A stretch of DNA of 64,000 bases from Sipunculus nudus (Eukaryota; Annelida; Sipuncula; Golfingiida; Sipunculidae): NCBI GenBank assembly GCA_026874595.1, contig CM049322.1, positions 49,825,340-49,889,339 of the forward strand, read 5' to 3'. Positions 337-64,000 of this stretch are shown here, piece by piece; the first letter of the stretch is position 1; each line of letters opens with the position of its first letter. Both the position numbers and the translations under genes were made by a program. A model generated the notes under the pieces. The model did no database searches. It worked only from the letters and a program-made list of their open reading frames with translations, and was not told the DNA's origin.

Positions 337-18881
<18,545 letters not shown>

Positions 18882-32800: not shown

Positions 32801-35800
32801 AATGGGGACAATTACATAGGGCCTGCAGGTGCATTAGTCACCAGGCCTGGTTGACACCAGGATTATAAATGAGAGGAAGCTTGTGATACTGCCCTGTCAC
32901 GAAGTCTGAAGCAAGAATGCATTTCTGCAGATTATATTAAAATATGGAGGCGGTTACCTCCACCAAAAAAATCACATATATTACACACCGTGAATTGAGT
33001 TTCATTTTCTGGATTTGTCCATTCCTCAAGCTCTTAAGATTAAAACCCATGTGAGTGTGATCAGTGTACATAATCATATATATATATAGGCATATATGTA
33101 ATATATATGAGTGAAACAATGTGTATTTTGTGCATATACATGTGTGCATATATATATATATATGCATGAACCTGCAGAAGGGTCCAGTAGTACAGCAGGC
33201 ACATGGATGTGGTGGGCTTTCCCAAAAAAAGTGTACTGATGGTCATTTTACTAGGAAACTCTCATTCTTTTATGTGTGAAGATCTCACCTCTGATGTATA
33301 AGTGTGTGCACATACTGTGGTTACCTCTTTTTTGTGAGGGTTTATAATTCACAATATTCACAGAAGAGAAAGTGTTGTGAAAATGAACACTGGGGATCCA
33401 TCAGAGAAGGGCCAGTGGACAGGGGAATAAGGACAAGGATACAGGTAGATCTTGTATGTTACCAGGAAATAAAAAAATTATACTATATATTATATCTTTT
33501 TACATAAAAGAAAATCATATCCCCTCGTTCATTTATCCTTTTGGTCCCCGTCCAGTTATTATGATTTCGGGCACATATTATTTAAAATAATTCATCAAAT
33601 AATGGATACATATATACTGTGTATGTTACTACATGGTGAGAGGGTGAATATGAAACCCTTGTGAAACAATCAGTAGTATTAATTTGTGAAATTTTAACTT
33701 CATGAATATGAAGCCAACCACAGTATGCTGATGAACAAATTGGGGTTAGACCTTCTTTCTTATCTGCCAAATTGGCCAGCTGCTTGAAAAAAAAGGTGCC
33801 CAAACATTCATAGTCCATTCAACTTTGGGGTTTTTGTAGAGACAGTTTTTTGTAGTGAAAATTACTTTCCAGTGCACAAATTATTAATGACTCTCCCAGG
33901 GGGAAAGAGACCATGGGTACACCCTTTGGAAACATATGACACATAATATAATACCGTATTCGACGTAATAAGCGCCTCTCCTGTAATAAGCGCCCCCCCC
34001 CCCCCCCTGGATTTGGGAGATCACTTTATGAAACTAAAGGATGAGCCATCCTTACCTCACTTTTCTCCCAGCCAATATAACACAGGACAACATAATGCTT
34101 TCATTTTTCTCCCCGCCAAGCTTAAAAGTTACCACCAGTTTTATTCAATCTCCCTTAAGCTTTATCATCTAATATAATTATAATATTAGTTACACATAAC
34201 AGAATCAGTGGTCAAGTGTATCATAGATAACACTGAATGACGGTGTCCGTGAAGGCAGACCCTGCAGGTGGCCATGCTGATCGGGTGACCTGAATTCAGG
34301 TACGCATGTGGATGTATTATGCAATGAAATATATATTACATACCGTATTTGCTCGTGTACAGGACGATTAATTTTATCCTAAAATATTGGCAAAGAATGG
34401 CAGCTCTTATACACTGGTACAAGTTTCTCAGCGTCCTCAGGGCAGCCAAGGATAATTTACAGCAATTTGAATTATTACGTCGGCCAAACTTGACGCCGTG
34501 AATATCAGTGATCATGTCCGTATTGTGGTAATATACACTCAATAAAGAACATTTCAATGCTTTGTTTTTGTTTGAATTTATCGTTTATACATCAAATTTC
34601 CATGTGCACATAGTTAAATAATTGCTAAGAAAAGGTTTGCCGTTGCCGCATTGACACAGGGATTTTAACTGAATCAATTTATGAAAGCCCTTCTGACAGT
34701 AGAGCCAGTGAATTTACGCGACCGCGGACGGAATCGCGGAATTGACCCAAACGGAATTCCTAATCCTGATAATATATAAGTTTTAATGTATTTTTTGCCA
34801 AAAAGTATCTTGGCAATTCACTTGAAACATGTACACAGTGATATAATTGTCGATGCCACTGACAGCGTGCAGGGCTTACCCATGTACTCAAGATCCCAGT
34901 GCCCTGGGTTAATCTGTGTGTATACAGCACTCGCACAAGGGATGCTTGGAACTTGCCTAACCAAGTGCCATCCAGTAGCACATAATATGCATGTTAAAAC
35001 AAGGGACCTATGGGTCACGACGCTCAGCTGTTATATATGATAAAAAAATATTATTTAGAAATGAGGCACATGCTGGTTTTGTGTGGTAATAAATATAAGC
35101 TGTATTATGAGTTGTTGTTGTTTAGCTTATGTATGATTTTGATAGTACCTTTGGAAACAGGGAAGAGGATTGATTTCATTTATTTTATTAACAAATGGAG
35201 TACTACTGTCACACAGATTTTGACTTGGCCATATAACTTATAAGCAGAACATATAATTTAAGAGTTTAACTATTTATTAAAAAAATTACAAATATTGTCC
35301 CAAATATAATTTTTATTAAAAAAAATAAGAGAATCATATGATTTTTTAAAATGAAATATAATTGATATGATTATTAAAATAATATTAAAGAATATATTCA
35401 TGAATGCATTCATGAATACATTTTGAAAGTATTTGCACGAGTATTCATATACTTTCATTTTTACCTGAATTCCCATTCTTTATGCAAGAAATTTTATAAT
35501 GGAGTACATAATCATATTCGTATTTAAATACAATTACAAAGTATTCGCACCATGTCTGGTATTTATTCACCAAACAATGATGTTGAGAATCCAGAATATA
35601 CAAAATTCACACATTTAAATAATGATCATAAGTACCTGGTTTTATGGCTTTTATTTATATTAAAAAATAACTGTAAAAAATTCATTTTGGACTAATTTCA
35701 CATCAATGTACACACTAGACACAGTAGGAATCTAGATTAATATTATCAACTGCATCTTTGTCTATCATTAATTTCCTTCATATAATCCTTAATGATTAGT

Positions 35801-38800
35801 AATGAATAATATGATTTACTTCTTTATCATTAAAAATGAACTGAAAAATGCCATAGGTGACTGCATGGTGTTATTTGGAATATGTGACATTCTACCCATC
35901 GATACAAGATTCTTATATCATCAGTAACTGCAAGTTAATTTCCTGTTATTATAAACTAACAAATTCCTTTTCTATTTTTCTTTAATTTGTTATTAAAAAC
36001 CAATAAAAATTTATTAATTTATTGTTTATTGTTATGTTGTTGGTTAAAACTACTAGATGAGTTGGGTTGAACACCTGGATCAACTGTGGCTGGCCATCAG
36101 CTGCCTGGATTCTCCCCTCAAGCGTGCATAATTTGATGAAAGGTCAACAAGGTCAACATACAGGTGACTCAAGAGGGGCTTGAGAGAGCCAAAGTCTGAC
36201 AGGGTCTCATAAAAAACATTAATAAAAGCTACAATATTTGGCAAATTTCTTTCAGCTTTCTAAACTAAAAAGCTGAAATCCTTATGTGTGCAAGATATGA
36301 AAATTATATCAACAGTGCTCACGGGAAACAAACGTGCCATGGTCACAGTTGGGCAAAATTTAAGGTACTAATTTTATATTTATACTAATAACTTATAAAA
36401 TTTGAAAAATTCAGAACTAATTTTGGGTATTCAATTGAATCTTGATTAAATATTGTTACATCCCTGACAAAAAAGATCTCTAGCGTCAGCAATGCCCTTG
36501 TTAAGGGAGTAAATATATTTCTTGATTTTTTACAAAGTGCATTATGTTTGGGCCCATAACTTAAAAAAATACACAATACTGACATCATTTCTGGCATGTG
36601 CATAGTGAATGTATAGAAAAGTATGTATATTATATATGATCAAAGTCAGATCAGTGGTTTTGATATTAGGCAGTCTTAAAGTGTAACATTGGGTTTTTAA
36701 TGGAAAAATTAAGTTTTTCATTGATATCTCGAAGGAATTAAGTCCTAGTGACCAAATTCTTGGCATGGTAGGGGATTTTGGAGAAATCTAACTGTATGCC
36801 AAATTTAAGGAACTTAGAGCTGAAGCTCGGGAGCTGAGCTCTAGCAAACTGCATAACACTAGCAATATGTGACATGGTGCTTGAAAACTTGAATAAAATC
36901 TACAGTTTTTGATCAACTGGTTTCAAATTTTTGGTGTTAACAGTTGAAATGCTAACAAAAACATACTGTGAAAATTAAATCCACAGCAGTTACAGCAAAA
37001 AAATGTGCCATGGTCAAAGTTGGGCAAAATTTAAGGTACCAATTTTTTATTTTTGCTAATATTTTAAAAAATTTAAAAGATTTTGATCTAATTTTGGGTA
37101 TACAATTTAATTTTGATTAATAAAAGTAATATTACTGGAAAAAAAGTGCTTAGCTTTAACAAGTTTTGTGTTAAGTGATAAAATTTCTTTCCTGATTATT
37201 TGAAAAATGCATTATGTTTGGGCCCATAACTTTTTTAAATTAAATAATACAGACCTAATTTCTGGCATGTACATAGGAATTATATAGAGGATTATTTATA
37301 GGAAATATGAGGAAAAACAGATGAGTGGTTTTGATATTAGGCAGTCCTAAAGTGTGAAAATAGGTTTTTAATAAAAAATTGAGGTTTTTCCTTCATTTCT
37401 CAAAGGAATGAAGTCGCAAAGACCCAGTTTTTGGCTTGGTAGGAGATCTTGGGGACATCTAACATTATGCTGAATTTTGGATTCCTAGGTCTTACGGTTT
37501 CAAAACGTGCCACATCTACGGACGGACGGACGGACGGACGGACAGACGGACGGACGACGGACAATGGACCACGACTATAGCTCAGATGACTTATAGTCAG
37601 CTGAGCTAACAAGGATGATTTTTTTCATATGGTGCCGTATTTACTGCGTAAAATGTTCACGAGTCCAGTGAATGCGGACGCTGTCAGCTGGCTTGCACAC
37701 TGACATACACGGAGACTCGCTCATGGCACTTCAATTACAAGACAACCAGTAGCGCATTATAATTTTAAATATGAAGCGGCCTTTCCTCAGGTGACAATGT
37801 TTGTCAAGCTTGTATTATTGGACTACCTCAAGAAATGAATGTATTATAACGGGTCAACAAAGTTAAAGAAAGGGACCGTGTTTCCACGGGATATAAATAT
37901 GACAAATTTCCTAACAATTTTAAAACAAAACCCCGGATTTGGTTCGTATACGCACTGAAGTAAATATAATACGCTGGAGTCTGTGGGCCAGTATTTCAGT
38001 TTTTTTTTAAACTTTTGCATGTAATATCAAGCACAATGAAAGACAAAAAAGACAATTATTGTCGATGCCATTCCATGCCATTAATCGACTCAGCTGTCAA
38101 AGGTATTTGCGCAAGGTGACTGACATAATTGGGGTACCGATGTCCCGTATTATTTTTTTTCATTATTCAAATAAATACTGTTTTACATATTTTTATATGA
38201 ACATTTTATATATTCTGCTACCTTATTAGGCTTTGACTTTTATAAAAGCGTTCATTTATTACCATCCTTATTTTTTTCCTCTTCACCTGCAAAGGAAATC
38301 TCGAACTGTAGTCATTCAGACAATTCTCTCATGCAAAACAAAATAAAATCGTCTGCAAATCGGTATCACTTGGATTACACAACCATTGTTAAATGATCAT
38401 TGTTTTTCTCTGAATTGTCCTGAATGTGCTGTGAAGTCAAACACGTGTACACAAGCCGCAGTGTTAAATTGGAGGATCGTAATGCACTTTGGAAGTTGGC
38501 AGATGTTGGGGGGGGCGCTTATTAGGGTATAAAAAAAATTGGGAAAAATTAAATTTTGAGAGCGCCCGGGGTGCATATTACATCGAATACGGTATATATC
38601 TGTTGATTTTAAAAGTGAAAATCTTTGAAAATTATTCAAGTTTCCTTTATCCTGATATCCAGTATTGCACACTGTACATGGCAGGAAATGTGTATAGGTC
38701 ACGGTATAAAATTATTTTGTTATGAGTTTACTAGAGTTCATATCCGGAGTTTGTATTTACACATGGGTGTGAAATGGGAAAGTCAGATTTTGTATTGGCT

Positions 38801-41800: not shown

Positions 41801-41915
41801 ACTTCAGTGACAAATATATATTATTGTGGTCGGGCATGTGTGGGTACAGACCAGTTTCAGGGTTTTTGAGAGTATGTCTGTAAACATTCTTTCTCTCCTT
41901 CTCTTTTTCTTTCTT

Positions 41916-41955
<40 letters not shown>

Positions 41956-50900: not shown

Positions 50901-53900
50901 CACAATAATTCTTGCATGGATTTCCTTGATCTTTTGCTATATTTTGATCTTATATGTGGCCTGAGTGGTATTCCTTTTTAGACTGACAGGTATCGAGCAA
51001 GCTGTGGGATAAGTTCCTGACAGCTAAACAACCATACATTTTGCCTCAGACCATCAAACACTATGTTTTAACCAGACATATATGATAAGAATTTATGGCA
51101 ACGTAGAAAGTTTAAACAAAATTGGCATATAGGTTCTGCAACAATTTTACTAGAAGTTGTGAATCGCAGCACATGATGTCGCAGGTCATGCTTGGCAGCT
51201 GAGCGTCATGACCCATGGGTCACTTATTTAAAGATTATTACAATAATCTAAATGCTGCAAGTTAAAGGATAATAAATTCTCAGATTTTTTGGTCACAAGG
51301 TTAAAATCACATGACCATCATTCTGAAAAATTTCTTTAAAAATATCCTTATAGACAAATACAGCTGAGCGTCGAGACCCCTGGGTCCCTTGTTTATTTGG
51401 TATGTTGTGTCTATTCTTCACAGGTTAAGATTATTTGTCATTTACCACAGTGTTGATGCAGTAGGATGGATGGCTGTTGCAGTTCATTTGCCCTTTATGA
51501 CAGTTTACATATGTCATAACTCTACTAAACTTACCAGTCCAATATAAATGCAAAATTAGTCATGTTTTAATTTCTAACCAGAAATGTGAATAACAGCCAA
51601 GTTGTGTGAAGAGAAGGAAATGGTGCCAAGTACCACAGAGACAGCATCAGTGCTTTTAGTTTTTACAGTCACATGCAAGCTTCTGTGGTAATTCCTCACT
51701 CATAGTATAATATATCAAGATAAACAGCTATGCTCAGTGAAATTGTAACAGCGGGGGGGGGGGGGGGATAGCCATCGCAGTGTGGTTTTTTGCATTACTG
51801 GCATTAAGATTCAAAGTAGGCATTATCAGTCTTGTATAAACGCATAAGTCATGTACATTTGGCCTTTAGTTATGTTCAGTGTACTTTGTTGAGTGAGATG
51901 GCCCTGCAGGCAATGATAGCTGTGTTGATCAGATTTTTAGTTTATGCAAGATAAGTTAAGCACACACAATGATGTCATATCTTTCTTGTACATCAGACTT
52001 CTCAGCATAAGTCCTACCACTGGTAAAGACATCTGTTGGATTGATTTGGTACTAATGAATTTGAAGGGTATAGAGCAGACTTGGATCAAGTACATACACT
52101 TCAAGTACATACTTTGTAGTGGTTTCCCTGTAATTTTACACAAGTAGAGTACCTGAATTGAATCAAGTACATCTCAAATACTGTTCAGTGCCGGCATTTT
52201 TTTTGTGTTTGTTTATTTTTAAAACAGAGAATCATGTGCTGACCATAAGCATAGCATGACAAGACCTGTTCATTGTTTACCGCTTAAAGGACAAATAAAC
52301 ATAAATACAGCATTATACTTCCTTCTTAATTTATTGACAGGTAGCATTGAAAACAAGACCATATCAGGTGGTAATCATCTAGATACATCTAACTAAGTAC
52401 TGATTCTAGAGATGTGCACATGATGAAAAGATATAGGTTTAAAACAAGTAAAATTCCTGGCTCAGATCTGATAATGTTGAGGGATACATTGTTCTGTACA
52501 GTGTTACATTTGTGATTTAAGTGAAACTTCCCTGTTTGGGGGTTTGTGTCGTGATGTTGCGGTCCATAGTTGTGGGTGATTGGAAAACACAGAGGAGATT
52601 ACTATCTTTCACTTAAAATATTTTGACTTCTTTGGCTGTTTGCTGCAGGCTGGGTCACTTCCTATGATCAAGACTCACTCTAGTGGAACGAAGACACCTT
52701 ACTTCTCCTAGCCACACTACCTGCTATATCATGAATTATCAACCCATCAAATCCAGCATATGTAACACAAGTAAACAGTACTGATACAGTACTGATACTC
52801 AGGATTAAACACTGTTCACACACAAACAGATCAACAAGAACACATGAACTGGATTAGGTTACAAGTTTCTTTAAATATTATTATTGTTCATACAGGTCTT
52901 AAAACCCATGAAAGGCAAAATTGAGGTTCATAGATATCCATAAAATTTCATAAATATAACAAGAAGTTCACAAAAGTCCTTAGAATTTTCTGTTTGTGCA
53001 GTTCTGTCTTTTTTTCAGCTTTACCTCTGGTTTTACCGCTGATGAATGGTTAATTTTACAGATGCACAATGTAGTCTTAGCCCCTGTTGTTTCTCTCGAA
53101 TTATCTGCTCTTGTAAGTCTTGTAAGGAGACTGTATAGAGTTTTATTTTCAGATAACTTTGTGAATTTGGCAGCAAGGAGTGGAGCATCAGTTTTCCTGA
53201 GTGAACATGTTTATTTATCAGAAGTGGTCGCCATTCATCAGAAATTATCTCACTAAATGCAGATAGAGGTCCATAAAATCTGATGGATGTGGTCCTTAAA
53301 AGTCCTAAAAAGGTTCTTAAATTTATAGAAAGGTTAAGAGTGTGAACCCCGGTGATATTCCAGCATTGCTAGGTTATTGATCTAAAATTAGAAACAGAAT
53401 TGTTTTACACAGTGCATACAGAGAGCAAATGCAAGTCACTTTATTTGTTCAATGGCCTTGAGAATAAGATGTGAAATGGCTGGTCTGTACCACTGCCAGT
53501 TAATATGATTAATATCAACAAGCCCCAAATTGCATGATGTAAATATAACTGATGTCAACAATATACTACATGAAGATGAAAATGATGTTGCCGGGGAGAT
53601 CCCTGCATTTAGTCCACATCCAATATTGCATGTATACGTCAATCATAAAAGTGATAAATTAAATAATAAGTAGAGAAATAGTGACAATATATATATATGT
53701 ATATATGGTTGATAGCATATTTGGTTGTTTAATGATGAATTTTCCTTATAAAATTCAATCTTGACCTTCAGACTGTCTTTAGGCCACTATGCAAGTAGTT
53801 CCACTACCAGTCAAAACATTTATTTAGTTAATAATATACAAGTAATTAGTGCTCAGTGTAGTGTAGTGTAGATATGCCAATAATTAGGTGAAAATGAGAT

Positions 53901-56900
53901 CATAAGAGCTTGAACTTTCTGCGATGTCAGCCATTAGATTTTCTTTAAAAAATTGGTTGGATTTCTCATAAAATCAACAAAATGAAATGTCCCTTGATTA
54001 ATTAAGAATCAACTGTAAATCCAAGAACGATTATAGCGTTGTCAGAGGAAACACGGTGCACTCATTCTCCTCATGTTTCTGCCGATGTTTACTGCCGACA
54101 TATTTAATCTATTTATAAATCGAGACAGGAAATGTGTGTCCTCTTTATACCAATAGTAAACACCGACTGTGATGGATGTTATGATTTACTCTCCTGAATA
54201 AAAGTGATTTGTCATAGAGTGCTGATGGCGATAAGACTTCATTATGTCATACAGAGAACTGCAGGTCAGACATAGGCCACACACACTTCCCCCAAGGCTA
54301 AACCCTCGGACAAAAAAGATAAAAAATACTTTCTAGATTAGACGTTCCTGGAACATTCATTCTTTAAATGGTTTTATCCTACTTGAGAATTTGGGTGTGG
54401 TCCAAAAAAAGTGTTATTGCGATATTAACTTTGCTGATACACATCTCCTTGCAACCAGGGGCTCTGCTCAGACGGATCCTCACCTGAAAACTGTCCTCAA
54501 ATTCTCACCTGGACATTGTTCTGGGAGTACTTAACTAATCTGTACAGGTTTATTTCTACTGGTTTCTTGAAACTGTTCATGGGGGCTACCATTATGTGTA
54601 CACACTAAAACCTGGACATCTGTGACAGGTCCCATATCAAAATTTTGCATATACACTGTTAGTATTTATTTGTTGTAGAAAACTTTGTTTAAATATTGCA
54701 GATTATTTCCTCGCAGAAATATATAAATTGTTAATAAGATATCATGGAATATGTTTCAACTGTGCTTGGCCATCTTACAAAATAATTCTAGAGTAACTTG
54801 GAACATGATTGTTGTTAATATAGATTTTGATTTTTTTAAAAGGTTTTAATATCTCTAGCTTAATCTTATTTCAGCTTGTTGCACTGGAAATAATGCTGTT
54901 CACAATTGCAATCCATGGAATATGTGTTTGAGCATATAATATGAGGATATACACTAATACAGGGGTCGTAATAATGCCTTTCTGCCTGTCTCAGACAGGC
55001 AAACACATGAACAGAAAGACATTTTTCATTTTGTACCAGTCCATTGGAAAGGTGAATTCCCAGATGTAAAAAATAATTAAAAATCAGCAAAAACAAAATA
55101 GTATGGTTACTTCAAGCCTCCCAGCTACTCACGCCTATATTCAATCACAACTTACATGACAAAAGTTTGCTGGGGGTCCCCATTAGGACACTGCACCATA
55201 ACAGCGCAGGTTAAATGTTCCCAACAAATATCAAAACGGATGTGACTGATTGAAATTTTGATATGATGATAGGATGCATCTGTTTGTGGAAAGCCAAATT
55301 TTCCAGCAGAAAGGCAAAACTACATTTATGTGTTTCCGTCGGAAAGAGGAACAATTCAAAATATTACGAACCCTGATGACAACAACAATAAAATTATCCA
55401 GTATTTGCATGTTATGTGTTTTATTAAATGAACAGTAGGTGGAGCTGAAATGCAGAATCAGTATTACTGTAATTGATAATCAAGACAATTTTATTAACCC
55501 ATTTTAGACCCTGGTATCACTATTTATAAAGGAGTTGTACAAAATATCATCATATGTGACCTTGAAATACATCAGTCTGTACATTGGAACACATCCACCA
55601 AATATACTAAAGCACAGTGAACATTTCATTGTGGTCTCCAATGATCTAGTCACATTTTGTTACTTCTTCGGAAAAATGTATCAGTTTGGTTGTAAAAAAA
55701 TTAATGGATAAAATAAATATATTCTTGATTTACTGGTGTTTGGACAACAGATCCCAGTTGCAATTAGGGGTCTTGATCCACTTAGCCTACCACCTGGCTG
55801 AAGAACACATTGATTTTTTCAGGTTAACAGTGTGGGCTAGTGTGGTCATGAATTACTGAAACATCTATATAATATATTGATTTATGTTGATGCACCTTAC
55901 AGTTATCACAAATCAATATGATAAATAGGTGTAGTGCCTTCTTAAAAGACAGGTAACACAAATGGAAGAGATTTCCAACCTGTTTTTACTGAACTGTATT
56001 GGGAACATTCTGTTAGTGTTAATACAAACCTAGAGAAATCGGCTTCTTTGGTGTAGCAGTAGAACACAGGACTCAAAGCTGGGAGATCACGAGTTCAAAT
56101 CTCAGCCAAGGAGTTGGCCCCACCCAGGGAAAGAGCGCTGTAGGCTTAATGGGAATGCTGCATCCAAGGGCCATGTTTACTCACAAACGAATGCACCTTT
56201 CAGGGGTTCCTTGTTTGTATGACCAAGAAGTGGGGTCAATTACACACCCAGGTGAAGGTGCAGTAGTCACCGGGCCTGTTTAACATTAGTGTTGCTGCCC
56301 TGTCTTATACTTATAGTCAGAAACTGGAATGGAATTCTGCAGATGTACACCTTTAGTTGAGCTAGCATTAAAGATGGAGGCGGTTTTCTCTCACCAAAAC
56401 AAGACTATATAGAGATAAGATTTTGATGACTTTCTCTATTCTGTTTCCAGAACAATTGTTCCATGGAGGTTCTTCCGCCAGCACCTTCACGACACCCACA
56501 CAATCAGTTCGTCGCTGGAAGCCATGGCGCTCAAGTCCACGATAGACTTAACGTGTAACGACTACATCTCCTGTTTTGAATATGATGTGTTCACTAGGTA
56601 AGTCCTCTTTTATAGACTGTAAATAACATGTAAAAGATACAACAGTGAATTATGCTAGTGGAATTCTCACTGAAATATAGTGTTATTTTCATTGTTTAGC
56701 AGTTTCGTTGATGTTTTTTGGTATTTTATCTATAAAGAAATTTGATTTTCACATAAAATGAATTGCAGATCAATACTAGAAAGGGAAAACTGTTGAAATT
56801 GTGTATTGCAGTCTAAACAGAATACACGACAGAGTGCTGTTTTCTGCTTTCCATAGGTGGACTCCTACAGATTTCTCGGGACTCGAGAGAGTCCTGCACT

Positions 56901-59900
56901 GTTAAAATTTTTGTCCCTGAAAAAATGAACAGATTTAAGTTAAAGCCTGCTCTTGAGTCCTACATCACTTACCGATCGTAGTCAAACCAGCTGATACCTC
57001 GTACTCCTGTTTATGTATTCTTTTTCAGCATTTGAATTTGGTGTGTTACACTGATTTACATAATTTTACACCCATGTGTTATATTGCAGACTGTTCCAGC
57101 CCTGGTCAAACCTATTGAGGAATTGGAATGTATTGGCGGTCACGCATCCTGGTTACGTGGCCTTCCTAACGTACGACGAGGTCAAGGCCAGGTTAAATAA
57201 ATTCTCATCCAAACCAGGAAGGTGAGAGATGGTGATGTTTATGAACTGATTAAATTTTAAGTCAGTCATGACAGTGCTTAGGTGTATGTTCTGAAGTAAT
57301 CCTGCCAGCATTCGGTTACCATGGCAGCATTTGGGTAAATATTAAGGGTACCATATATATAAGGTACTAGTATATATTTCAGAGTTGATCATGACAGCAC
57401 TTTGGTATATATTTATTGGTTATAGCCATGGCAACACTTGGGGGATATATTTCAATGTTGATCATGGTAGCTCTTTTGTCTATATTTAGAGGTAGCCCAA
57501 TGCAACACTTGGGTATATATATTTAGAGGTAGCCATGGCAACTCTAAACTATATATTTACAGGGAACTATGATAGCACTTGATGATATATATCAGATGTA
57601 TGTTTGAGGTATATGTTCACATGTTTATTTATTTCACAGGTAACCTTTGCAAAATATATATATATGGTTTTATATTCAGAAGGTTATCAGCATTACTGGG
57701 AGCATTATTCTGATGTACCTCTGATTTAATATTTTATATAATATGTTTATCCTTATATATCATGTATACAGTTCTATATATGTTAATCTCCCAAAGTCAA
57801 CAGCAAAATGCTTTGAAAGGTTAAAATTGTGAATACAACAATTACATGACAGACCAACACATTTATTATCCAAAAGGTTTGGAAACAGTTGTACAAGTGT
57901 TTTCAAAATGGTAACAATGTGATGGAATCAAGACCCCCTGAAATGCTTTGAGTACAAGTACAGGAGTCAATACTTTATTTCAAGTATAAGTAATTTTATC
58001 ATTTAATTAATTCAGATACTCATACTGAGGTTTATAATGTGAGAAGTTTACGACTGATATCTAGTTGAGAACAAATTTCTATCAGTCTGTCATGGTGCTA
58101 AGATAGTCAGATCATCACAAGGTGTCCTCATGCTATATTAGTAGATATATTTCTTTTTTTGTTTAAAATTTGTACTTGACTTGTACCTAACTTTTCAAGT
58201 ACATTTTTGGCAAGTACAAGTACAGGACAAGTACTCATATACTTGAACGGAAGTACAAGTACCAAGTACAAGTATGTGTACATTACCCAAGCCTGCAACA
58301 AACCGGCATCATGAAAAGGGTCATTTATATGTTTCTTCATTGTAAAATGTCAAGTACAGATACATATTGTATTGTCATGTGTTTCTTATGTTTCGACAGC
58401 TACGTGTTCAGACTTAGCTGCACAAGACTCGGCCAGTGGGCTATCGGCTATGTCACACAGGACGGACAGATACTGCAGACTATACCACAGAATAAATCAC
58501 TGTCTCAGGCACTGCTGGACGGACAGAGGGAGGGGTTGTAAGTCTAAGAACATCAAGTACAACGGAACTTTATTAAATACATAAGATATATGAACTATTA
58601 AATATATGAAATAATTACTGGCTCAGGTGCTGCTGGACAGAAAGAGGGAGAGGTTCTTAGTCAAAGAATGTAAAATAGAACTGTATTAAATAAATGAAAT
58701 ATATAAACTGCAAAATAAATCATCAGCTGAGGCACAGCTTAACAGACAGATGGAGGGGTTGTAAGTCAAAGAACATAAAAAACAACTTCAGTAGAATCTC
58801 AAATTGTTGTATCTATTTTTAGCTCAGCTGACTATAAGTCATCTGAGCTATAGTCGTGGTCCATTGTCCGTCGTCCGTCCGTCTGTCCGTCCGTCCGTCC
58901 GTCCGTCCGTAGATGTGGCACGTTTTGAAACCGTAAGACCTAGGAATCCAAAATTCAGCATAATGTTAGATGTCCCCAAGATCTCCTACCAAGCCAAAAA
59001 CTGGGTCTTTGCGACTTCATTCCTTTGAGAAATTAAGGAAAAACCTCAATTTTTTATTAAAAACCTATTTTTACACTTTAGGACTGCCTAATATCAAAAC
59101 CACTCATCTGTTTTTCCTCATATTTCCTATAAATAATCCTCTATATAATTCCTATGTACATGCCAGAAATTAGGTCTGTATTATTTAATTTAAAAAAGTT
59201 ATGGGCCCAAACATAATGCATTTTTTAAATAATCAGGAAAGAAATTTTATCACTTAACACAAAACTTGTTAAAGCTAAGCACTTTTTTTCCAGTAATATT
59301 ACTTTTATTAATCAAAATTAAATTGTATACCCAAAATTAGATCAAAATCTTTTAAATTTTTAAAAATATTAGCAAAAATAAAAAATTGGTACCTTAAATT
59401 TTGCCCAACTTTGACCATCTCACATTTTTTTGCTGTAACTGCTGTGGATTTAATTTTCACAGCATGTTTTTGTTAGCATTTTAACTGTTAACACCAAAAA
59501 TTTGAAACCAGTTGATCAAAAACTGTAGATTTTATTCAAGTTTTCAAGCACCATGTCACATATTGCTAGTGTTATGCAGTTTGCTAGAGCTCAGCTCCCG
59601 AGCTTCAGCTCTAAGTTCCTTAAATTTGGCATACAGTTAGATTTCTCCAAAATCCCCTACCATGCCAAGAATTTGGTCACTAGGACTTAATTCCTTCAAG
59701 ATATCAATGAAAAACTTAATTTTTCCATTAAAAACCCAATGTTACACTTTAAGACTGCCTAATATCAAAACCACTGATCTGACTTTGATCATATATAATA
59801 TACATATTTTTCTATACATTCACTATGCACATGCCAGAAATGATGTCAGTATTGTGTATTTTTTTTAAGTTATGGGCCCAAACATAATGCACTTTGTAAA

Positions 59901-62392
59901 AAATCAAGAAATATATTTACTCCCTTAACAAGGGCATTGCTGAAGCTAGAGATTTTTTTTGTCAGGGATGTAACATTATTTAATCAAGATTCAATTGAAT
60001 ACCCAAAATTAGTTCTGATTTTTTCAAATTTTATAAGTTATTAGTATAAATATAAAATTAGTACCTTAAATTTTGCCCAACTGTGACCATGGCACGTTTG
60101 TTTCCCGTGAGCACTGTTGATATAATTTTCATATCTTGCACACATAAGGATTTCAGCTTTTTAGTTTAGAAAGCTGAAAGAAATTTGCCAAATATTGTAG
60201 CTTTTATTAATGTTTTTTATGAGACCCTGTCAGACTTTGGCTCTCTCAAGCCCCTCTTGAGTCGCCTGTATGTTGACCTTGTTGACCTTTCATCAAATTA
60301 TGCACGCTGAAGGGGAGAATCCAGGCAGCTGATGGCCAGCCACAGTTGATCCAGGTGTTCAACCCAACTCATCTAGTAGTTTTAACCAACAACATAACAA
60401 TAAACAATAAATTAATAAATTTTTATTGGTTTTTAATAACAAATTAGAAAAAATAGAAAAGGAATTTGTTAGTTTATAATAAAAGGAAATTAACTTGCAG
60501 TTACTGATGATATAAGAATCTTGTATCGATGGGTAGAATGTCACATATTCCAAATAACACCATGCAGTCACCTATGGCATTTTTCAGTTCATTTTTAATG
60601 ATAAAGAAGTAAATCATATTATTCATTACTAATCATTAAGGATTATATGAAGGAAATTAATGATAGACAAAGATGCAGTTGATAATATTAATCTAGATTC
60701 CTACTGTGTCTAGTGTGTACATTGATGTGAAATTAGTCCAAAATGAATTTTTTACAGTTATTTTTTAATATAAATAAAAGCCATAAAACCAGGTACTTAT
60801 GATCATTATTTAAATGTGTGAATTTTGTATATTCTGGATTCTCAACATCATTGTTTGGTGAAAACTGAATAAATACCAGACGTGGTGCGGATACTTTGTA
60901 ATTGTATTTAAATACGAATATAATTATGTACTCCATTATAAAATTTCTTGCATAAAGAATGGGAATTCAGGTAAAAATGAAAGTATATGAATACTCGTGC
61001 AAATACTTTCAAAATGTATTCATGAATGCATTCATGAATATATTCTTTAATATTATTTTAATAATCATATCAGTTATATTTCATTTTAAAAAATCATATG
61101 ATTCTCTTATTATTTTTAATAAAAATTATATTTGGGACAATATTTGTAATTTTTTTAATAAATAGTTAAACTCTTATATTATATGTTCTGCTTATAAGTT
61201 ATATGGCCAAGTCAAAATCTGTGTGACAGTAGTACTCCATTTGTTAATAAAATAAATGAAATCAATCCTCTTCCCTGTCTCCAAAGGTACTATCAAAATC
61301 ATACATAAGCTAAACAACAACAACTCATGATACAGCTTATATTTATTACCACACAAAACCAGCATGTGCCTCATTTCTAAATAATATTTTTTTATTATAT
61401 ATAACAGCTGAGCGTCGTGACCCATAGGTCCCTTGTTTTTCCTAAAATTTGCTTTTCCAAAATTTAAATTGAGGAACCAAAATTTACCAATATTTACTGA
61501 TAAGTAGAAATGTGACATTCAGAAACACATTTTTTTCCATATAAGCGAATTTTATTCTGAGGTTAACAGTGATTGTAAATGGTTCGCTGTTTTATAAAAT
61601 AAAAATAAAATTCAGGATCAAATGTTCTGATGAGATAACGTTACTGGCAGGATCAGGATTAGTGAGCAGTAGCGTGTTGGAACCTTGAAATGCCCACCGG
61701 TAGTAATAGTATATTTATTGAAAACAATGGTATACCGTAAAAATCTCATTAGAATCCCCGAATTATATTAAGATAAAGTCATGCACAAATTGGGGAACTT
61801 TATATGAACTCTGCCTGTGTCTTATATTTGGGGCATCACCGTGAATCTTATCTGAAGGGCGTGAACCAAAATAGGTGTATTTATGGCAATGTGCTTGCAC
61901 TCTGAAATTTACTGTACTTTCTTTACTTCATTTATCCATAACCTCAAACATCTGAACAAATTTGATGTCCCCCAAACTATTCAGATATTCAAGCTTCTAC
62001 TGTATATGTAATATTAGGGCTGTAAAGAATATTCAAACTCTTTGAGTGTCTGTGTTTGATGCTTGAAATCCGATGCACGAATATTCGCCTACAGGAACAT
62101 CACCAATTCACAACTTTGTTGAGACACCTACTTTGAGCTAAGAGGCTCAGTTGTATGTCTTTTCTTTTACAGTTACTTGTATCCGGATGGGAGGAATATA
62201 AATCCTGACATCTCGTTTCTGGTCGACGATCTGGCAGAAGACCACATTCAAGTCACACAAGAACAGTATGAGCTTTATTGCGAGATGGGCTCCACGTTCC
62301 AGCTCTGTAAGATCTGTGCGGAGAATGACAAAGATATCCGTATTGAACCGTGTGGTCACCTTCTGTGTATGCCATGTTTAAATGCCTGGCAG
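25209..62392 (+). CDS. CBL: CBL family E3 ubiquitin-protein ligase (exons 1-5, 3' part missing)
   Basis: Five exons join in frame into 394 residues that align closely with human CBL/CBLB. The family binds phosphotyrosine on receptor tyrosine kinases and ubiquitinates them, ending signalling. Residues 30-160 are the four-helix bundle, then the EF-hand ([13 protein letters not shown]) and the variant SH2, with the phosphotyrosine-binding Arg279 (human R294) and Gly291 (human G306, site of the loss-of-function G306E). The linker keeps Tyr353 and Tyr356 (human Y368 and Y371). The RING starts at Cys366 and shows C366, C369, C381, H383, C386, C389 and the E2-contact Trp393; its last two cysteines lie right of the window. 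The start ATG has A at -3, G at +4 and an in-frame TGA at 25,200. CBL, CBLB and CBLC cannot be told apart here; an invertebrate would usually have one gene. Confidence 0.97.
26545..27009. mobile_element. hAT-like MITE, copy A (465 bp)
   Basis: Ends CAGGGCTCCACATTAACG and AATGTCGAGCCCTG (inverted). AATGA is present just outside both ends (26,540-26,544 and 27,010-27,014), consistent with a 5-bp target duplication. The arms contain GGCAAGTAAAA and GGGGACAAGTAAAAATTCATG. An internal (TA)n tract fills 26,823-26,878. A related copy lies at 30,968-31,361. Confidence 0.7.
26823..26878. repeat. (TA)n microsatellite
   Basis: Interrupted TA repeat of about 55 bases inside MITE copy A, followed by TGTGTGTA. 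The related copy B lacks it, so it expanded after insertion or was the variable part of the element. Confidence 0.75.
27061..27252. repeat. Palindromic repeat with GATCACAATCGCAATCTCG units
   Basis: AGATTGCGATTGTGATCTCG occurs at about 27,120 and its inverse CGAGATCACAATCGCAATCT follows at 27,168 and again at 27,197, with CTAGGC between units. GGCCTAGGCTAGATTAAAAT at the left and AATTTAAAATGGGCC at the right form outer arms. Looks like a small foldback element. No TSD was identified. Confidence 0.5.
29264..29284. repeat. (TA)n microsatellite
   Basis: About ten TA units within CBL intron 1. Confidence 0.7.
29380..30760 (+). repeat. Tandem-core dispersed element, period about 270 bp
   Basis: The unit carries CCACCTGCAACCATTTTTGC, a CATCTGTTTGTCTKCC run, ACTCATATCTCGGCAGTGG, TGGCAGGTGGCGCCACCTAC and GCTGCAGACATCCAGGCT. 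It appears at about 29,850, 30,125 and 30,400, with a decayed copy before. GTGGCGCCACC is a self-complementary 11-mer. Lies in CBL intron 1; layout like the other tandem-core elements, but the ends are not clearly defined. Confidence 0.6.
30968..31361. mobile_element. hAT-like MITE, copy B (inverted relative to copy A)
   Basis: Ends CAGGGCT... (left, degraded) and AATGTCGAACCCTG (right). Read on the minus strand it follows copy A: GGCAAGTAGAAGTTCC, AAACCTTAACACAAAGG, AGTGGAATCATATTTC and GGGACAAGTAAAAATTC. No clear target duplication. It sits in inverted orientation 4 kb from copy A. Confidence 0.6.
32611..32970 (+). mobile_element. tRNA-derived SINE, copy 1 (head partly deleted)
   Basis: Head: GGCTTTCTTACCTGAGCAGA, then AGTTTGAATCTCAGCCGG with a B-box-like GTTTGAATCTC; part of the anticodon region is missing compared with copy 2. 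The shared body includes GGCTTAATGGGAA, TGCACCTTTC or TGCGCCTTTC, AATGGGGACAATTACA and GTAGTCACC/ATTAGTCACCAGGCCTG, and the tail is ATGGAGGCGGTT...CACCAAAAA. Same strand as CBL. Confidence 0.7.
33951..38595. mobile_element. Nested TIR element with CCGTATTCG ends, 4.6 kb
   Basis: Left end ATACCGTATTCGACGTAATAAGCGCC, right end GGTGCATATTACATCGAATACGGTAT: inverted repeats with a few differences. A C-run (33,993-34,006) and a G-run (38,509-38,515) face each other next to GCGCTTATTA on both sides. A 2.6-kb element of another family (34,999-37,607) is inserted inside, so the host element is about 2 kb by itself. No transposase ORF was recognised. Confidence 0.6.
34999..37607 (-). mobile_element. 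AGCTCAG-family element, copy A, 2.6 kb, nearly intact
   Basis: In minus orientation. Left end: a 29-nt hairpin at 37,579-37,607 (13-bp arms, one mismatch), then GTGGTCCATTGTCC and a (GTCC)n microsatellite (37,515-37,560). The interior holds two diverged 670-bp direct repeats, marked by GTGCCATGGTCA at 36,335 and 37,005 and by ATGTTTGGGCCCATAACTT. The right end is CAGCTGAGCGTCGTGACCC then ATAGGTCCCTTGT. It matches copy B (58,821-61,435) almost base for base. ORFs such as the [15 protein letters not shown] peptide come from the GTCC repeat. Confidence 0.8.
39110..41335. repeat. Minisatellite of 28-30-bp units, about 2.2 kb
   Basis: The unit is GGTTGGCCTAGTTATGTGAC plus TCTGAACACA (30 bp), with 28-bp variants lacking TC. 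Roughly 75 copies with point changes (CTAGTAATG, CCCAATTATG, CTGGTTATG). Late copies also form a higher-order repeat: the variant series starting GGTTGGCCTGGTTATGTGAC recurs at 40,759 and 40,987 (228 bp apart) and once at 39,571. No coding frame. Lies in CBL intron 1. Confidence 0.95.
41921..41954. repeat. (CT)n microsatellite
   Basis: About 17 CT units preceded by a TTTC-rich run from 41,888. It produces the false Leu/Ser-rich ORF around 41,900. Confidence 0.85.
42012..42143. repeat. (TTACTA)n microsatellite, three blocks
   Basis: Blocks of CTATTA hexamers at about 42,012-42,036, 42,048-42,066 and 42,079-42,143, interrupted by short unrelated spacers. They give a spurious poly-Tyr frame. 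Confidence 0.85.
42146..42236. repeat. 91-nt hairpin directly after the (TTACTA)n tract
   Basis: GTACTTAAACTTAATTAAAA through ATATCTATA, the single base C at 42,194, and then the mirror image ending ATTTTAATTAAGTAC. Arms of about 42-46 nt with a few mismatches or gaps (CATAAGG against CCTGATG). A minimal palindromic element or extruded-cruciform product. Confidence 0.7.
43351..43410. repeat. Possible pogo-like terminus
   Basis: TACAGTAGAATCTTGCTTATCC then AGACATCTCGACC: a CAGTNGAAnCTnNNTTATCCG-like end as seen in pogo/Tigger elements. No partner end was found close by. Confidence 0.3.
43740..44482. repeat. Minisatellite of 23-bp units, about 0.7 kb
   Basis: The plus-strand unit is TTGACCACATTGACACAGGG plus TGG, about 30 copies with variants (TGTTGACC, GGGCAGATGACC). 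23 is not a multiple of 3, and no minus-strand frame of the unit has a stop. So long minus-strand ORFs (147 and 123 codons) arise with a 23-residue period (for example [19 protein letters not shown]). I treat them as non-coding. Confidence 0.9.
46270..46670. repeat. Degenerate inverted repeat with GTGTTTCCATGT ends
   Basis: GGTGTTTCCATGTACATG and GTATTTCCATGTGTCTG on the left face ACATGGAAACACC twice on the right (46,552-46,566 and 46,605-46,618), with ATATGCGTGAAAA against TTCACGCATATGC. A palindromic MITE-like unit with a poly(T) run in the middle. Confidence 0.45.
47016..47042 (+). repeat. Left-end fragment of the AGCTCAG family
   Basis: AGCTCAGCTGACTGTAAGTC then AACTTAG: the left hairpin of the AGCTCAG family, preceded by a T-run and cut off by the next element. 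Confidence 0.55.
47043..48595 (+). repeat. ATGCCCCCGCC tandem-core element, core period about 185 bp (pearl/HINE-like)
   Basis: Starts with a T-run and a 29-nt hairpin at 47,049-47,077 (ATGCCCC, GCCAC against GTGGC, GGGGCAT), then ATGTCCGTCATTCCGTCC. About seven tandem units follow, each with ACATGTACGGACTTTTTTTC, GCAATGCCTGCAGATATTGG, GTGTGTGGGCAGATA, CAGTTACAGATCGAGTT, GTTGACCTACTTTTGACC and AAAATTTCATGAAAAATAGA. The right arm GCCCCAGGCGGGGGCATTCG then TGTCGTTCCGACATATCTAG mirrors the left GC-rich arm. ORFs across units are repeat translations, not genes. Confidence 0.8.
49123..49560 (+). promoter_or_regulatory. AGGTCA half-site arrays (nuclear-receptor-like DR1) in tandem units
   Basis: AGGTCA-A-AGGTCA-AGGTCA occurs at 49,123-49,141 and again near 49,541. 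AGGTCA-A-AGGTCA occurs near 49,269 and 49,404. Direct repeats spaced by one base are the RXR/HNF4/PPAR-type DR1 arrangement. The sites repeat because they are part of the tandem unit. Function is untested. Confidence 0.35.
50520..50790. repeat. Diverged tandem repeat, unit about 120 bp
   Basis: Two copies of GAGGATGTSTG...TCAAATGTCAGACTTGTCAGAA and ...TCAATTTCCGACCTGTCAGAA, each followed by (A)CCATTTTGTCTGCCAGG or CCAATATGGCGACCAGG. Lies within the interior of the diverged AGCTCAG-family element. Confidence 0.45.
51361..51393 (+). repeat. Extra right terminus of the AGCTCAG family
   Basis: CAGCTGAGCGTCGAGACCCC then TGGGTCCCTTGTT. A second terminus 135 bp beyond the first one suggests either two overlapping elements or an element that read through to a downstream end. 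Confidence 0.55.
56041..56400 (+). mobile_element. tRNA-derived SINE, copy 2, ends 50 bp before CBL exon 2
   Basis: Head GGCTTCTTTGGTGTAGCAGT (A box) and GAGTTCAAATCTCAGCC (B box), about 70 bp apart as in a tRNA. The body shares GGCTTAATGGGAA, AATGCACCTTTC, GGGGTCAATTACACA and GTAGTCACCGGGCCTG with copy 1. Tail GATGGAGGCGGTTTTCTCTCACC. Only about 50 bases separate it from the exon 2 acceptor, so the intron's branch point and polypyrimidine tract lie just at its edge. Confidence 0.75.
56451..56597 (+). CDS. CBL: CBL coding exon 2 (EF-hand region)
   Basis: Completes Lys182 and encodes residues 183-230 plus two bases: [19 protein letters not shown], then [20 protein letters not shown] and [10 protein letters not shown]. 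The EF-hand calcium loop residues D, T, N and the later E are kept. Acceptor TTTCCAG, donor AG|GTAAGT. Confidence 0.97.
57090..57221 (+). CDS. CBL: CBL coding exon 3 (EF-hand to SH2)
   Basis: Completes Arg231 and encodes residues 232-274: [20 protein letters not shown], then [20 protein letters not shown] and KPG plus two bases. This matches human [20 protein letters not shown] almost exactly. Acceptor TTGCAG, donor AAG|GTGAGA. Confidence 0.97.
57222..58399. other. CBL intron 3 with degenerate tandem repeat
   Basis: 1.18 kb. Bases 57,310-57,620 are built from variants of a unit of about 60 bp (CATGGCAACACTTGGGTATATATTT...GAGGTAGC). Bases 58,170-58,290 have repeated AAGTACAAGTAC text. No gene. 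Confidence 0.5.
58400..58537 (+). CDS. CBL: CBL coding exon 4 (SH2 phosphotyrosine pocket)
   Basis: Completes Ser275 and encodes residues 276-320: [20 protein letters not shown] and then [20 protein letters not shown] and GQREG plus two bases. Arg279 is the phosphotyrosine-binding arginine and Gly291 matches human G306. Acceptor CGACAG, donor TT|GTAAGT. Confidence 0.97.
58821..61435 (+). mobile_element. AGCTCAG-family element, copy B, 2.6 kb, nearly intact
   Basis: Plus orientation in CBL intron 4. The T-run and 29-nt hairpin (58,821-58,849) are followed by GTGGTCCATTGTCCGTCGTC and a (GTCC)n tract to 58,911. The interior and right end follow copy A throughout by eye, with scattered single-base differences (for example CATCTCACATTTTTTT at 59,417 against the mirror of copy A's TGTGCCATGG). 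The right end is CAGCTGAGCGTCGTGACCCA then TAGGTCCCTTGT. No transposase ORF. Target duplication not resolved because both flanks are T-rich. Confidence 0.8.
61960..62010. repeat. Possible pogo-like right end
   Basis: TTCAAGCTTCTACTGTATATG: an inverted match to the CAGTAGAATCTC at 58,788, suggesting that copy B may be inserted inside an eroded pogo-like element. Weak. Confidence 0.25.
62173..62392 (+). CDS. CBL: CBL coding exon 5 (SH2 end, linker, RING start)
   Basis: Completes Phe321 and encodes residues 322-394, including [20 protein letters not shown] and [15 protein letters not shown]. Tyr353 and Tyr356 are the regulatory linker tyrosines. Acceptor TTTTACAG, donor CAG|GTAAGT. The next exon (RING cysteines of the CPFC type) is not found in the remaining 1.6 kb. 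Confidence 0.97.
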
Positions 62393-62943
62393 GTAAGTTT
62401 ACCTCCCACACCCCCCAAACAGCTGTTTCATGAAACAAAAAATTTATTCTGTCCTGTTCAAATTTACCTTTAAGCTGAGCCTCATAACCTGTGGGTGGGT
62501 CACTTCTTAAATGTGAGTGAAAAGATTATTTATTCCTGAATTGATGTGAAATAATTTGTTTTGAAGGAGGGTTCCTGTTTGGGTGGGGGGTCAGATCCTC
62601 CACTACAGTGGGTAACTTGGTTTGTAAATAGAAACTTAAATACATGCTACTTCAGTGTCATAGTAATGCTCAGGTGAATTAATCAGATTATGAAAGAAAA
62701 TTGACATGATGTAGTCTTACTGTAATAAACCTTACCATAATTTGAGGAATACAGCATCATATAATATAAACTTAATTCTGATATAAGCTTTGTTAATACA
62801 CTCACTTTTTCCCCCAAACATTTCCTGCTGATTTATTTTTGTCTGGAAACTGTCCTCTGAGTATTTTCCTGTCATTTCCTTGTTGTTTCCTTATTGAGCC
62901 CTGTCAGGTTTATTTCTTTAATTAAAAAAAAATAATTAACCTT

Positions 62944-63755
62944 CTTTTTATGCCCCCGCCACAAAGTAGTTTTACCCATGTCCGTTGTTCCGTCCTTCCG
63001 TCATTCAGAAATCAAACAGTTGTACGGACTTTTTTTCGCAATGCCTGCAGATATTGGCCTGATTTTTGGTGTGTGGGCAGATATAGAACAGTTACAGATC
63101 GAGTTCGCGTTTCGTCCCGGTTGACCTACTTTTGACCGTTTTACGGCTCCTAAACTTAGAAAATTTCATGAAAAATAAAAATATTCATGACAGATACACA
63201 TGTAGGGTATTTTTTTCGCAATGCCTGCAGATATTGGCTTGATTTTTGGTGTGTGAGCAGATATAGACCAGTTACAGATAGAGTTTGCGTTTCGTCCTGG
63301 TTGACCTAATTTTGACCGTTTTACGGCTCCTGAACATAGAAAAATTCATGAAAAATATGAAATTTCATGACAAATACACATGTACGGACTTTTTTTCGCA
63401 GTGCCTGCAGATATTGGCCTGATTTTTGGTGTGTGGACAGATATAGACTAGTTACAGATCGAGTTCGCGTTTCGTCCCGGTTGACCTACTTTTGACCGTT
63501 TTACTGCTCCTAAACTTAGAAATTTTCATGAAAAATAGTAATATTCATGACAGATACACATGTATGGACTTTTTTTGGCAATGCCTGCAGATATTGGCCT
63601 GATTTTTGTTGTGTGGGCAGATATAGACCAGTTACAGATCGAGTTTGCGTTTCGTCCCGGTTGACCTACTTTTGACCGTTTAACGGCTCCTGAATATAGA
63701 AAATTTCATGAAAAATATGAAATTTCATGACAAATACACATGTACGGACTTTTTT
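62944..63755 (+). repeat. ATGCCCCCGCC tandem-core element, copy 2 (broken)
   Basis: The T-run and ATGCCCCCGCCACAAAGTAG mark the left end, but the second half of its hairpin (GGCTGGGGCATA) is missing. About four core units of about 180 bp match those at 47,043-48,595. The array is cut after ...CATGTACGGACTTTTT by another element. Confidence 0.8.
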
Positions 63756-64000
63756 AGCTCAGCTGACTATAAGTCATCTGAGCTATAGTTGTGGTCCATT
63801 GTCCGTCGTCCGTCCGTCTGTCCGTCCGTCCGTCCGTCCGTCCGTCCGTAGATGTGGCACGTTTTGAAACCGTAAGACCTAGGAATCCAAAATTCAGCAT
63901 AATGTTAGATGTCCCCAAGATCTCCTACCAAGCCGAAAACTGGGTCTTTGCGACTTCGTTCCTTTGAGAAATTAAGGAAAAACCTCAATTTTTTATTAAA
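63756..64000 (+). mobile_element. AGCTCAG-family element, copy C (cut by window edge)
   Basis: Left hairpin at 63,756-63,784, then GTTGTGGTCCATTGTCCGTC, a (GTCC)n tract and the same following text as copies A and B up to the window end. It is inserted after the ...ACGGACTTTTT of the tandem-core element, which is therefore older. Confidence 0.8.

Follow-up and report, generated by a model that had tools for sequence, protein, structure and literature searches.

Near-identical inverted elements around CBL exons 2-4 of Sipunculus nudus are ordinary copies of an abundant mobile element

In a 64,000-nucleotide stretch of the Sipunculus nudus genome (GCA_026874595.1, contig CM049322.1, positions 49,825,340 to 49,889,339; here the window), two near-identical 2.6-kb elements lie in inverted orientation on either side of exons 2-4 of a CBL gene, which raises the question of whether they form a special pair or are simply two members of a mobile family. 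We found that the two elements, copies A and B, are ordinary copies of a common mobile element, here called F1. They are very probably independent, fairly recent insertions of a non-coding, non-autonomous rolling-circle element of the Helentron/HINE type (a HINE is a non-autonomous Helentron) that was moved in trans. The genome searched comprised 1.43 Gb in 153 contigs; positions are numbered within the window, with negative and higher numbers lying outside it. The host gene was identified as CBL by joining the exons beside and between the copies, which matched the CBL-B and CBL chains of PDB over 212 of 212 residues (best E value, 2.6e-120). The exons and the two copies are arranged as follows.

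25302..25751, plus strand: CBL exon with the 4H domain, ends approximate (tblastn E 5e-70)
35000..37608, minus strand: copy A, a full-length F1 element, probably of non-autonomous Helentron/HINE type, 2,609 bases (self-blastn, multi-copy comparison)
56452..56595, plus strand: CBL exon 2, ends approximate (PDB chain match and tblastn)
57088..57219, plus strand: CBL exon 3, ends approximate (PDB chain match and tblastn)
58400..58537, plus strand: CBL exon 4, SH2 part, ends approximate (PDB chain match and tblastn)
58820..61435, plus strand: copy B, a full-length F1 element, 2,616 bases (self-blastn, multi-copy comparison)
62174..62398, plus strand: CBL exon 5, linker and start of RING, ends approximate (PDB chain match and tblastn)

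When the window was compared with itself by blastn, 34,996-37,612 (minus) matched 58,816-61,439 (plus) over 2,625 columns at 98.55% identity with three gap openings. With the element ends taken as TAGCTC...CCCTTG, an end-to-end alignment of A and B contained 28 substitutions in 2,608 aligned bases and nine gap bases in three openings. The resulting gap-free identity of 98.93% is clear of the limit of about 85 percent named in the initial annotation of this stretch. The copies face opposite ways, outward, with 21.2 kb between them. Copy A is situated in the CBL intron preceding the exon at 56,451, 18.8 kb from exon 2, and copy B in the intron after the exon ending at 58,537, 282 bases past the end of exon 4. 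The initial annotation had described near-identity over the whole length, an inverted, outward-facing arrangement about 21 kb apart and a location around CBL exons 2-4, and all of these were borne out by the self-comparison, the PDB matches and the tblastn placement of the exons. The flanks of A and B are unrelated, and in the self-comparison the similarity begins exactly at the element ends.

Both copies begin with TAGCTCAGCTGACTATAAGTCATCTGAGCTATAGTC and end with CAGCTGAGC-GTCGT-GACCCATAGGTC-CCTTG, and the same internal features were located in each.

58820..58856, plus strand: 5' subterminal inverted repeat and internal inverted repeat of B (single-stranded DNA hairpin, z -4.9)
58866..58910, plus strand: (GTCC)n microsatellite of B
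58951..59544, plus strand: core repeat 1 of B (self-blastn, 75% identity to core repeat 2)
59622..60216, plus strand: core repeat 2 of B (self-blastn)
61405..61413, plus strand: 3' subterminal repeat CAGCTGAGC of B, the inverse of GCTCAGCTG at the 5' end
61419..61430, plus strand: 3' palindrome GACCCATAGGTC of B, followed by CCTTG and a T-run
35000..35030, minus strand: 3' subterminal repeat, palindrome and CCCTTG end of A
36213..36806, minus strand: core repeat 2 of A (self-blastn)
36884..37477, minus strand: core repeat 1 of A (self-blastn)
37518..37562, minus strand: (GTCC)n microsatellite of A

The 5' end carries nested inverted repeats that, folded as single-stranded DNA, form a hairpin of -10.6 kcal/mol (z -4.9). 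The core consists of two units of about 595 bases each, 75% alike, and at the other end CAGCTGAGC sits 22 bases ahead of the terminal CCCTTG. Coding capacity is lacking: the longest stop-to-stop frame touching B, among frames read without a protein-family search, has 108 amino acids and runs into the flank. A search of a phage collection with B gave chance-like matches only (smallest E value, 0.07 among the 20 of 31 matches listed), and nothing in an Rfam scan of 34,900-61,600 reached the gathering threshold.

This anatomy corresponds to the substructures of HINEs listed in the available parts of PMC4067079 and PMC7492417. F1 possesses a 5' subterminal repeat with an internal inverted repeat, an inverse 3' subterminal repeat, a 3' palindrome, a T-rich target with TT on each side, a microsatellite with central tandem repeats, and no coding capacity. 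As far as the accessible sections of PMC7492417 describe it, Cg_HINE likewise has a 5' subterminal inverted repeat, an inverted repeat, a microsatellite, central tandem repeats, a 3' subterminal inverted repeat and a palindrome, and it inserts into T-rich sequence without target duplication, in non-coding regions of genes and in both orientations. F1 shares with DINE-1, HINE-Mo and their Helentrons, as portrayed in the part of PMC4067079 at hand, the type of ends, the T-run target, a variable number of flanking Ts and a high copy number. With canonical Helitrons it has in common a 3' palindrome and the absence of target duplication apart from possible Ts; however, F1 runs from TAGC to CTTG within T-runs, whereas canonical Helitrons run from TC to CTRR between A and T. 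Since the 5' TC, the 3' CTRR and the A/T insertion site were found in none of 41 copies examined, a canonical Helitron was rejected. A cut-and-paste transposon with terminal inverted repeats (TIR) was rejected as well, because the F1 repeat is terminal at the 5' end but internal at the 3' end and no non-T bases are duplicated.

The size of the family was estimated from its ends. The exact 37-base 5' end of F1 occurs at 11,588 places in the genome (5,765 plus, 5,823 minus), compared with 0 and 0 for a reversed control. The first 601 bases of B yielded 1,925 first-look candidates, of which the best 40 were scored and all were 95-100% identical; the last 601 bases yielded 347 candidates, 40 of them scored. 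Copies were then compared in a non-random set of 41, made up of A, B and the 39 loci (numbered with the prefix L) that best matched B over its first 601 bases. A full-length set of 38 (A, B and 36 loci) was obtained by dropping L018, L024 and L028, which gave no full-length alignment, and keeping L044, whose 3' end is cut. The 5' boundary falls at the identical base in 41 of 41 copies. The CCCTTG 3' end is intact in 37 of the 41 and is followed by TT in all 37, and TTTT precedes 38 of the 41 5' ends, the exceptions being A, L018 and L035, in which a single T follows another base. L017, L047 and a further F1-related member, copy C (described below), interrupt T-runs of known sequences, with no duplication of non-T bases. 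L017 and L047 lie in T-runs of other family members and have two Ts more than the uninterrupted relatives, and the nested copy L014 has four extra Ts compared with an uninterrupted relative.

Neither A nor B is the copy most similar to the other. Mean pairwise identity among the 38 full-length copies is 99.18%, and 573 of the 702 other pairs match or exceed the similarity of A to B. The closest copy to A is L025 on contig C5 (99.62%) and the closest to B is L042 on C4 (99.54%); the A-B identity ranks 33 of 38 for A and 23 of 38 for B. These ranks are pairwise identities; the tree was built with copy C, whose different body distorts the rooting, and the 38-copy counts leave C out. A and B have one non-majority base state in common, compared with nine shared by A and L025 and nine shared by A and L051. 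Gene conversion or exchange between A and B was therefore rejected, as they share a single such state and are less similar than most pairs. Divergence from the majority of the 38 copies averages 0.48% (A, 0.61%; B, 0.54%), which indicates that the examined copies are young. The differing flanks and the closer relatives on other chromosomes indicate that A and B landed independently, and near-identical inverted copies are to be expected in a young family with thousands of members.

How such copies could arise was considered next to the enzymes available in the genome. A Rep/helicase encoded elsewhere would act on F1 in trans as a presumed helper; one F1 strand would be copied by a rolling-circle mechanism and, as a putative single-strand intermediate, would be inserted into a run of Ts, leaving the other target bases unduplicated. 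The anatomy and the T-run insertion point to this mechanism. The Helitron_like_N domain (PF14214) has at least 143 matches in the genome (150 of 195 candidates scored), at least seven of them in open frames of more than 2,200 codons, the longest with 2,426 codons, and transposition enzymes may accordingly be available. Frames of 1,882-2,426 codons with this domain were seen on C3, C4, C7, C8, C11, C13 and C17 and are possibly intact autonomous elements.

Several observations weigh against assignment of F1 to the HINEs. No autonomous element with F1 ends, of the kind that partners DINE-1 and HINE-Mo in the part of PMC4067079 at hand, was found: within 3.5 kb upstream of Rep in the long open frames of L061 and L062, two of the 143 matches, there was no F1, F2 or F3 5' end allowing 6-8 mismatches (F2 and F3 are two further families introduced below). 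The fold of the 3' palindrome is no better than that of shuffled sequences (z -0.57). The F1 core comprises two units of about 595 bases, whereas Cg_HINE, to which F1 was likened by description, has arrays of 138-181 base units in the same sections of PMC7492417, and the 3' subterminal repeat lies 22 bases from the end in F1 compared with 38-60 in the mite HINEs of the PMC4067079 excerpts. Finally, the extra Ts at L017, L047 and L014 may reflect a short T duplication on insertion.

The initial annotation had treated A and B as a special pair on account of their similarity, inversion and position in CBL. Those three properties stand; the distinctiveness of the pair does not, as A and B are two among the many copies of one transposable element. 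That the pair is functional, its transcripts pairing to favour back-splicing of CBL exons 2-4 or its repeats supporting recurrent inversion, is highly improbable: length and identity would suffice in principle, as in any long and similar inverted pair, and B is close to exon 4, but A is far from exon 2 and could also pair with copy C beyond exon 5, A and B show no sign of sequence exchange, and they belong to a family numbering thousands of copies. An inverted segmental duplication, or an assembly artefact as already raised in the initial annotation, would likewise give two highly identical copies in opposite orientation. However, the flanks are unrelated right from the element ends, the copies differ by 28 substitutions and three indels, and the nearest relatives of A and of B lie on other chromosomes; the unrelated flanks led us to reject this origin, the probability of which we regard as negligible. 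Independent insertion of two F1 copies accounts for the pair, the inversion of which is a consequence of each landing site and has no known effect on CBL.

The initial annotation did not include the F1-related copy C, which starts at 63,755. It belongs to a wider group of F1, F2 and F3 pieces near CBL, of which F2 and F3 were classed as rolling-circle-like by eye from their ends, feature-by-feature testing being confined to F1. The F1 and F2 pieces are the following.

12689..12719, minus strand: F1-like 3' end with 7 mismatches, above the 6-mismatch cut of a 150-kb scan
47015..47044, plus strand: F1-like 5' end with 4 mismatches, an F2 element directly after it
47044..48590, plus strand: F2 element, ends ATGCCCCCGCC...CTAG, with an internal array of 180-bp units
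51196..51391, plus strand: two F1-like 3' ends (51,196-51,226 and 51,361-51,391)
62945..64000, on to about 66,565, plus strand: F2 element hosting copy C
63755..64000, on to 65,660 past the window (L052), plus strand: copy C, F1-related, 1,906 bases

Copy C is similar to F1 in its first 650 bases (87%) and at its 3' end but differs in its body. It lies inside the T-run of a 180-bp satellite monomer of the F2 element, with five Ts left of it and three right; this monomer run is usually seven or eight Ts long, and L031 occupies the corresponding run of another array. The element starting at 47,015 may terminate in one of the two 3' ends near 51.3 kb. F2, which carries 180-bp satellite arrays between conserved ends, has 2,719 exact 24-base 5' ends in the genome, and a further F2 element was noted at -3,485 to -2,619 (L056). 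F3, present at 2,134 places genome-wide, is found in the window at 29,518-30,718 on the plus strand, where a 5' inverted repeat, 273-bp repeats and a 3' hairpin with CTAG were recognized by eye.

The strands of these pieces change once across CBL. A scan of 150 kb (C17:49,785,340-49,935,339; 6-mismatch cut, with the 7-mismatch end at 12,689 added) placed four of four F1 and F2 pieces left of 37.6 kb on the minus strand and eight of eight right of 47.0 kb, two of them nested, on the plus strand. A single switch fits 10 of 10 non-nested pieces, with a chance of 0.02 if these are separate insertions; counting the 47,015 end together with a 3' end near 51.3 kb as one element leaves nine pieces and a chance of 0.035. 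The count omits the F3 element at 29,518, whose plus strand runs counter to the pattern, five palindromic echoes of better opposite-strand matches, a weaker plus-strand 5' end with 7 mismatches at 48,800 and, for the 0.02 figure, the two nested elements. Target supply was rejected as the cause of the switch here, since T and A runs of five or more do not switch, numbering 191 and 236 to the left of the border and 133 and 152 to its right. Gene orientation was not supported either: the gene-like frames, an ankyrin-like frame recognized by eye (-28.8 to -23.3 kb) and CBL, are both plus. From left to right, T/A rises from 0.956 to 1.028 and G/C from 0.961 to 1.047. A rise in both skews is the sign expected at a replication origin, but it would also come from transcription of CBL. 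Of the 39 F1 loci, 19 have another F1 or F2 piece in their flanks, which is on the same strand in 18 of the 19 (hand count), about half of these pieces being nested and hence strand-biased by the target T-runs. F3 in such flanks is on the F1 strand in three of seven cases (L041 counted via its match to L018).

Other features of the neighbourhood were recorded as well. Minisatellite arrays with 28-30- and 23-base units adjoin the strand switch in CBL intron 1 at 39,108-41,349 and 43,723-44,483, and upstream of CBL the plus-strand open frames at -28,839 to -23,276 (L054) have 253 and 791 codons and look ankyrin-repeat-like by eye. The segment at 5,977-7,214, bounded by terminal repeats TACAGTGGAACCCC...GGGGTTCCACTGTA, is probably a cut-and-paste element. 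At 16,808-16,990 and 18,108-18,301, about 1.1 kb apart, an inverted repeat with arms of about 190 bases (91-96% alike) may mark the ends of another DNA element. Downstream of the window, a tandem unit of about 7 kb occurs at 89,669-110,000 (L058-L060) in three copies that are 97-98% identical.

To see the strands of the three families over longer distances, we turned to chromosome C1, where all statistics, including the controls, refer to the matches listed, that is for F1, F2 and F3 the first 100 of the 11,588, 2,719 and 2,134 places, and pairs are not independent. Among the F1 matches listed, 34 of 34 between 0.10 and 1.15 Mb are minus. Their same-strand frequency is 0.92-0.94 for distances under 100 kb; it then drops to 0.86 (100-300 kb) and 0.77 (300-600 kb), reaching 0.50-0.51 past 1 Mb. 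With the first 1.2 Mb left out, the values are 0.77 (30-100 kb), 0.70 (100-300 kb), 0.38 (0.6-1 Mb) and 0.30 (1-2 Mb). The listed F1 matches form 18 runs compared with 43 expected (reached in 0 of 20,000 shuffles, and in 58 of 20,000 after same-strand neighbours within 30 kb were merged). The families also agree with one another among the matches listed: within 100 kb, same-strand pairs number 127 of 138 for F1-F2 (3 of 99 rotations reach this), 35 of 42 for F1-F3 (2 of 99) and 37 of 52 for F2-F3 (1 of 99). Beyond 8 Mb, listed F2-F3 pairs share a strand in 34 of 45 cases within 100 kb (0 of 74 rotations), 19 of 22 within 30 kb (10 of 5,000 permutations), 15 of 23 at 30-100 kb and 33 of 59 at 100-300 kb. 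By nearest neighbour, listed F2 matches agree with F1 in 20 of 25 cases (4 of 99 rotations) and listed F3 matches with F2 within 100 kb in 23 of 36. The test of F2 runs is weak (41 listed versus 51 expected; 532 of 20,000 shuffles as low), and listed F2-F2 pairs beyond 8 Mb no longer agree at 100-300 kb (28 of 57).

How evenly the two strands are listed was judged from runs of ten Ts (T10), of which there are 110,167 genome-wide. Among the T10 matches listed, no minus place falls between 541 kb and 2.89 Mb; this listing is strand-uneven beyond 541 kb, and that of F1 may therefore be uneven too. In each of the F1, F2 and F3 listings the two strands stop at similar positions. Up to 541 kb, the matches listed are 18 plus and 47 minus for T10 and 0 plus and 27 minus for F1. 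A dense same-strand T10 cluster at C1:526,309-541,118 is probably a tandem array. The probable cut-and-paste TIR element of 5,977-7,214 served as a control but is sparse (internal 25-mer, 157 places; 5' end, 701 matches genome-wide). Among the TIR matches listed, TIR-TIR pairs share a strand in 0 of 3 cases within 100 kb and 6 of 15 at 100-300 kb; TIR copies agree with the nearest F1, F2 or F3 within 100 kb in 5 of 11 cases, and 8 of 19 have none so near. TIR pairs within 100 kb are same-strand in 3 of 11 cases with F3, 4 of 5 with F2 and 20 of 20 with F1, the last from three TIR copies. Collectively, the counts suggest that the three families have common strand domains on C1, of about 30-100 kb and longer near the start of C1.

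One tentative explanation, for which we would claim clearly less than even chances, is that element strand is set by the direction of the replication fork: a single-stranded element would join the lagging-strand template and point along fork movement. Precedents make this attractive, as in the parts of PMC5371812 at hand insertion orientation of IS200/IS605 follows replication direction in bacteria, and in those of PMC10030826 L1 favours the leading-strand orientation. Provided the strand domains are real, F1 would resemble IS200/IS605 in orientation along host replication, but IS200/IS605 as described there are bacterial and use another enzyme without a helicase, and the link to replication would here be inferred. 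The resemblance to human L1, as those excerpts present it, concerns strand behaviour only, an orientation bias relative to replication direction; L1 is a retrotransposon with a different mechanism. Helitrons are reported to insert near other Helitrons in the available sections of PMC12477314, which speaks to clustering and not to strand. The main text of PMC5876387, on Helitron mechanism, does not use the word "orientation", and the parts of PMC9341512 and PMC5148889 at hand hold nothing on replication-linked strand. No report of fork-coupled Helentron or Helitron insertion strand was found in the full-text collection searched, which leaves out most subscription journals and all bioRxiv preprints.

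In favour of fork direction are the single minus-to-plus switch around CBL, which is independent of any listing, the constancy of T-run supply and gene strand across it, the rise in skew (shared with transcription), and, among the C1 matches listed, the decay of F1 strand agreement with distance and the agreement across families. Against it, the F1 listing may be as strand-uneven as that of T10, F3 matches the F1 strand in fewer than half of the F1 flanks and is plus at 29,518 within the minus half, and pairs are not independent, nested copies being biased to the same strand by their target T-runs. Among the matches listed, the nearest-neighbour counts are less strong, the test of F2 runs is weak, F2-F2 pairs beyond 8 Mb cease to agree at 100-300 kb, and the TIR control is too sparse and includes the 20 of 20 agreement with F1. 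It is rather unlikely that strand domains, where real, instead reflect transcription, through insertion or selection by strand relative to host genes. A correlation length of about 30-100 kb outside the first 8 Mb of C1, among the matches listed, is a usual gene size, and the five F1 and F2 pieces counted from 47.0 to 61.4 kb, inside CBL, are all sense. However, A is antisense within CBL, the pieces left of CBL are minus though the nearest gene-like frame there is plus, and same-strand runs on C1 reach about 1 Mb among the matches listed.

If fork direction does set the strand, A (minus) and B (plus) would flank a zone of replication initiation located at 37.6-47.0 kb in CBL intron 1, and the pair would be inverted because its members straddle that zone, which adds to their independent insertion. 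It is possible, though we are doubtful, that fork direction sets the strand of eukaryotic rolling-circle elements in general, in which case their orientations genome-wide would form a fossil map of fork movement, with A and B on either side of the initiation zone. The A-B pair itself is ordinary, and the wider significance includes the strand pattern. Should the strand domains prove real, they would point to a coupling between Helentron/Helitron insertion and the replication fork of the animal host, and past replication direction would be readable from sequence in species without replication data.

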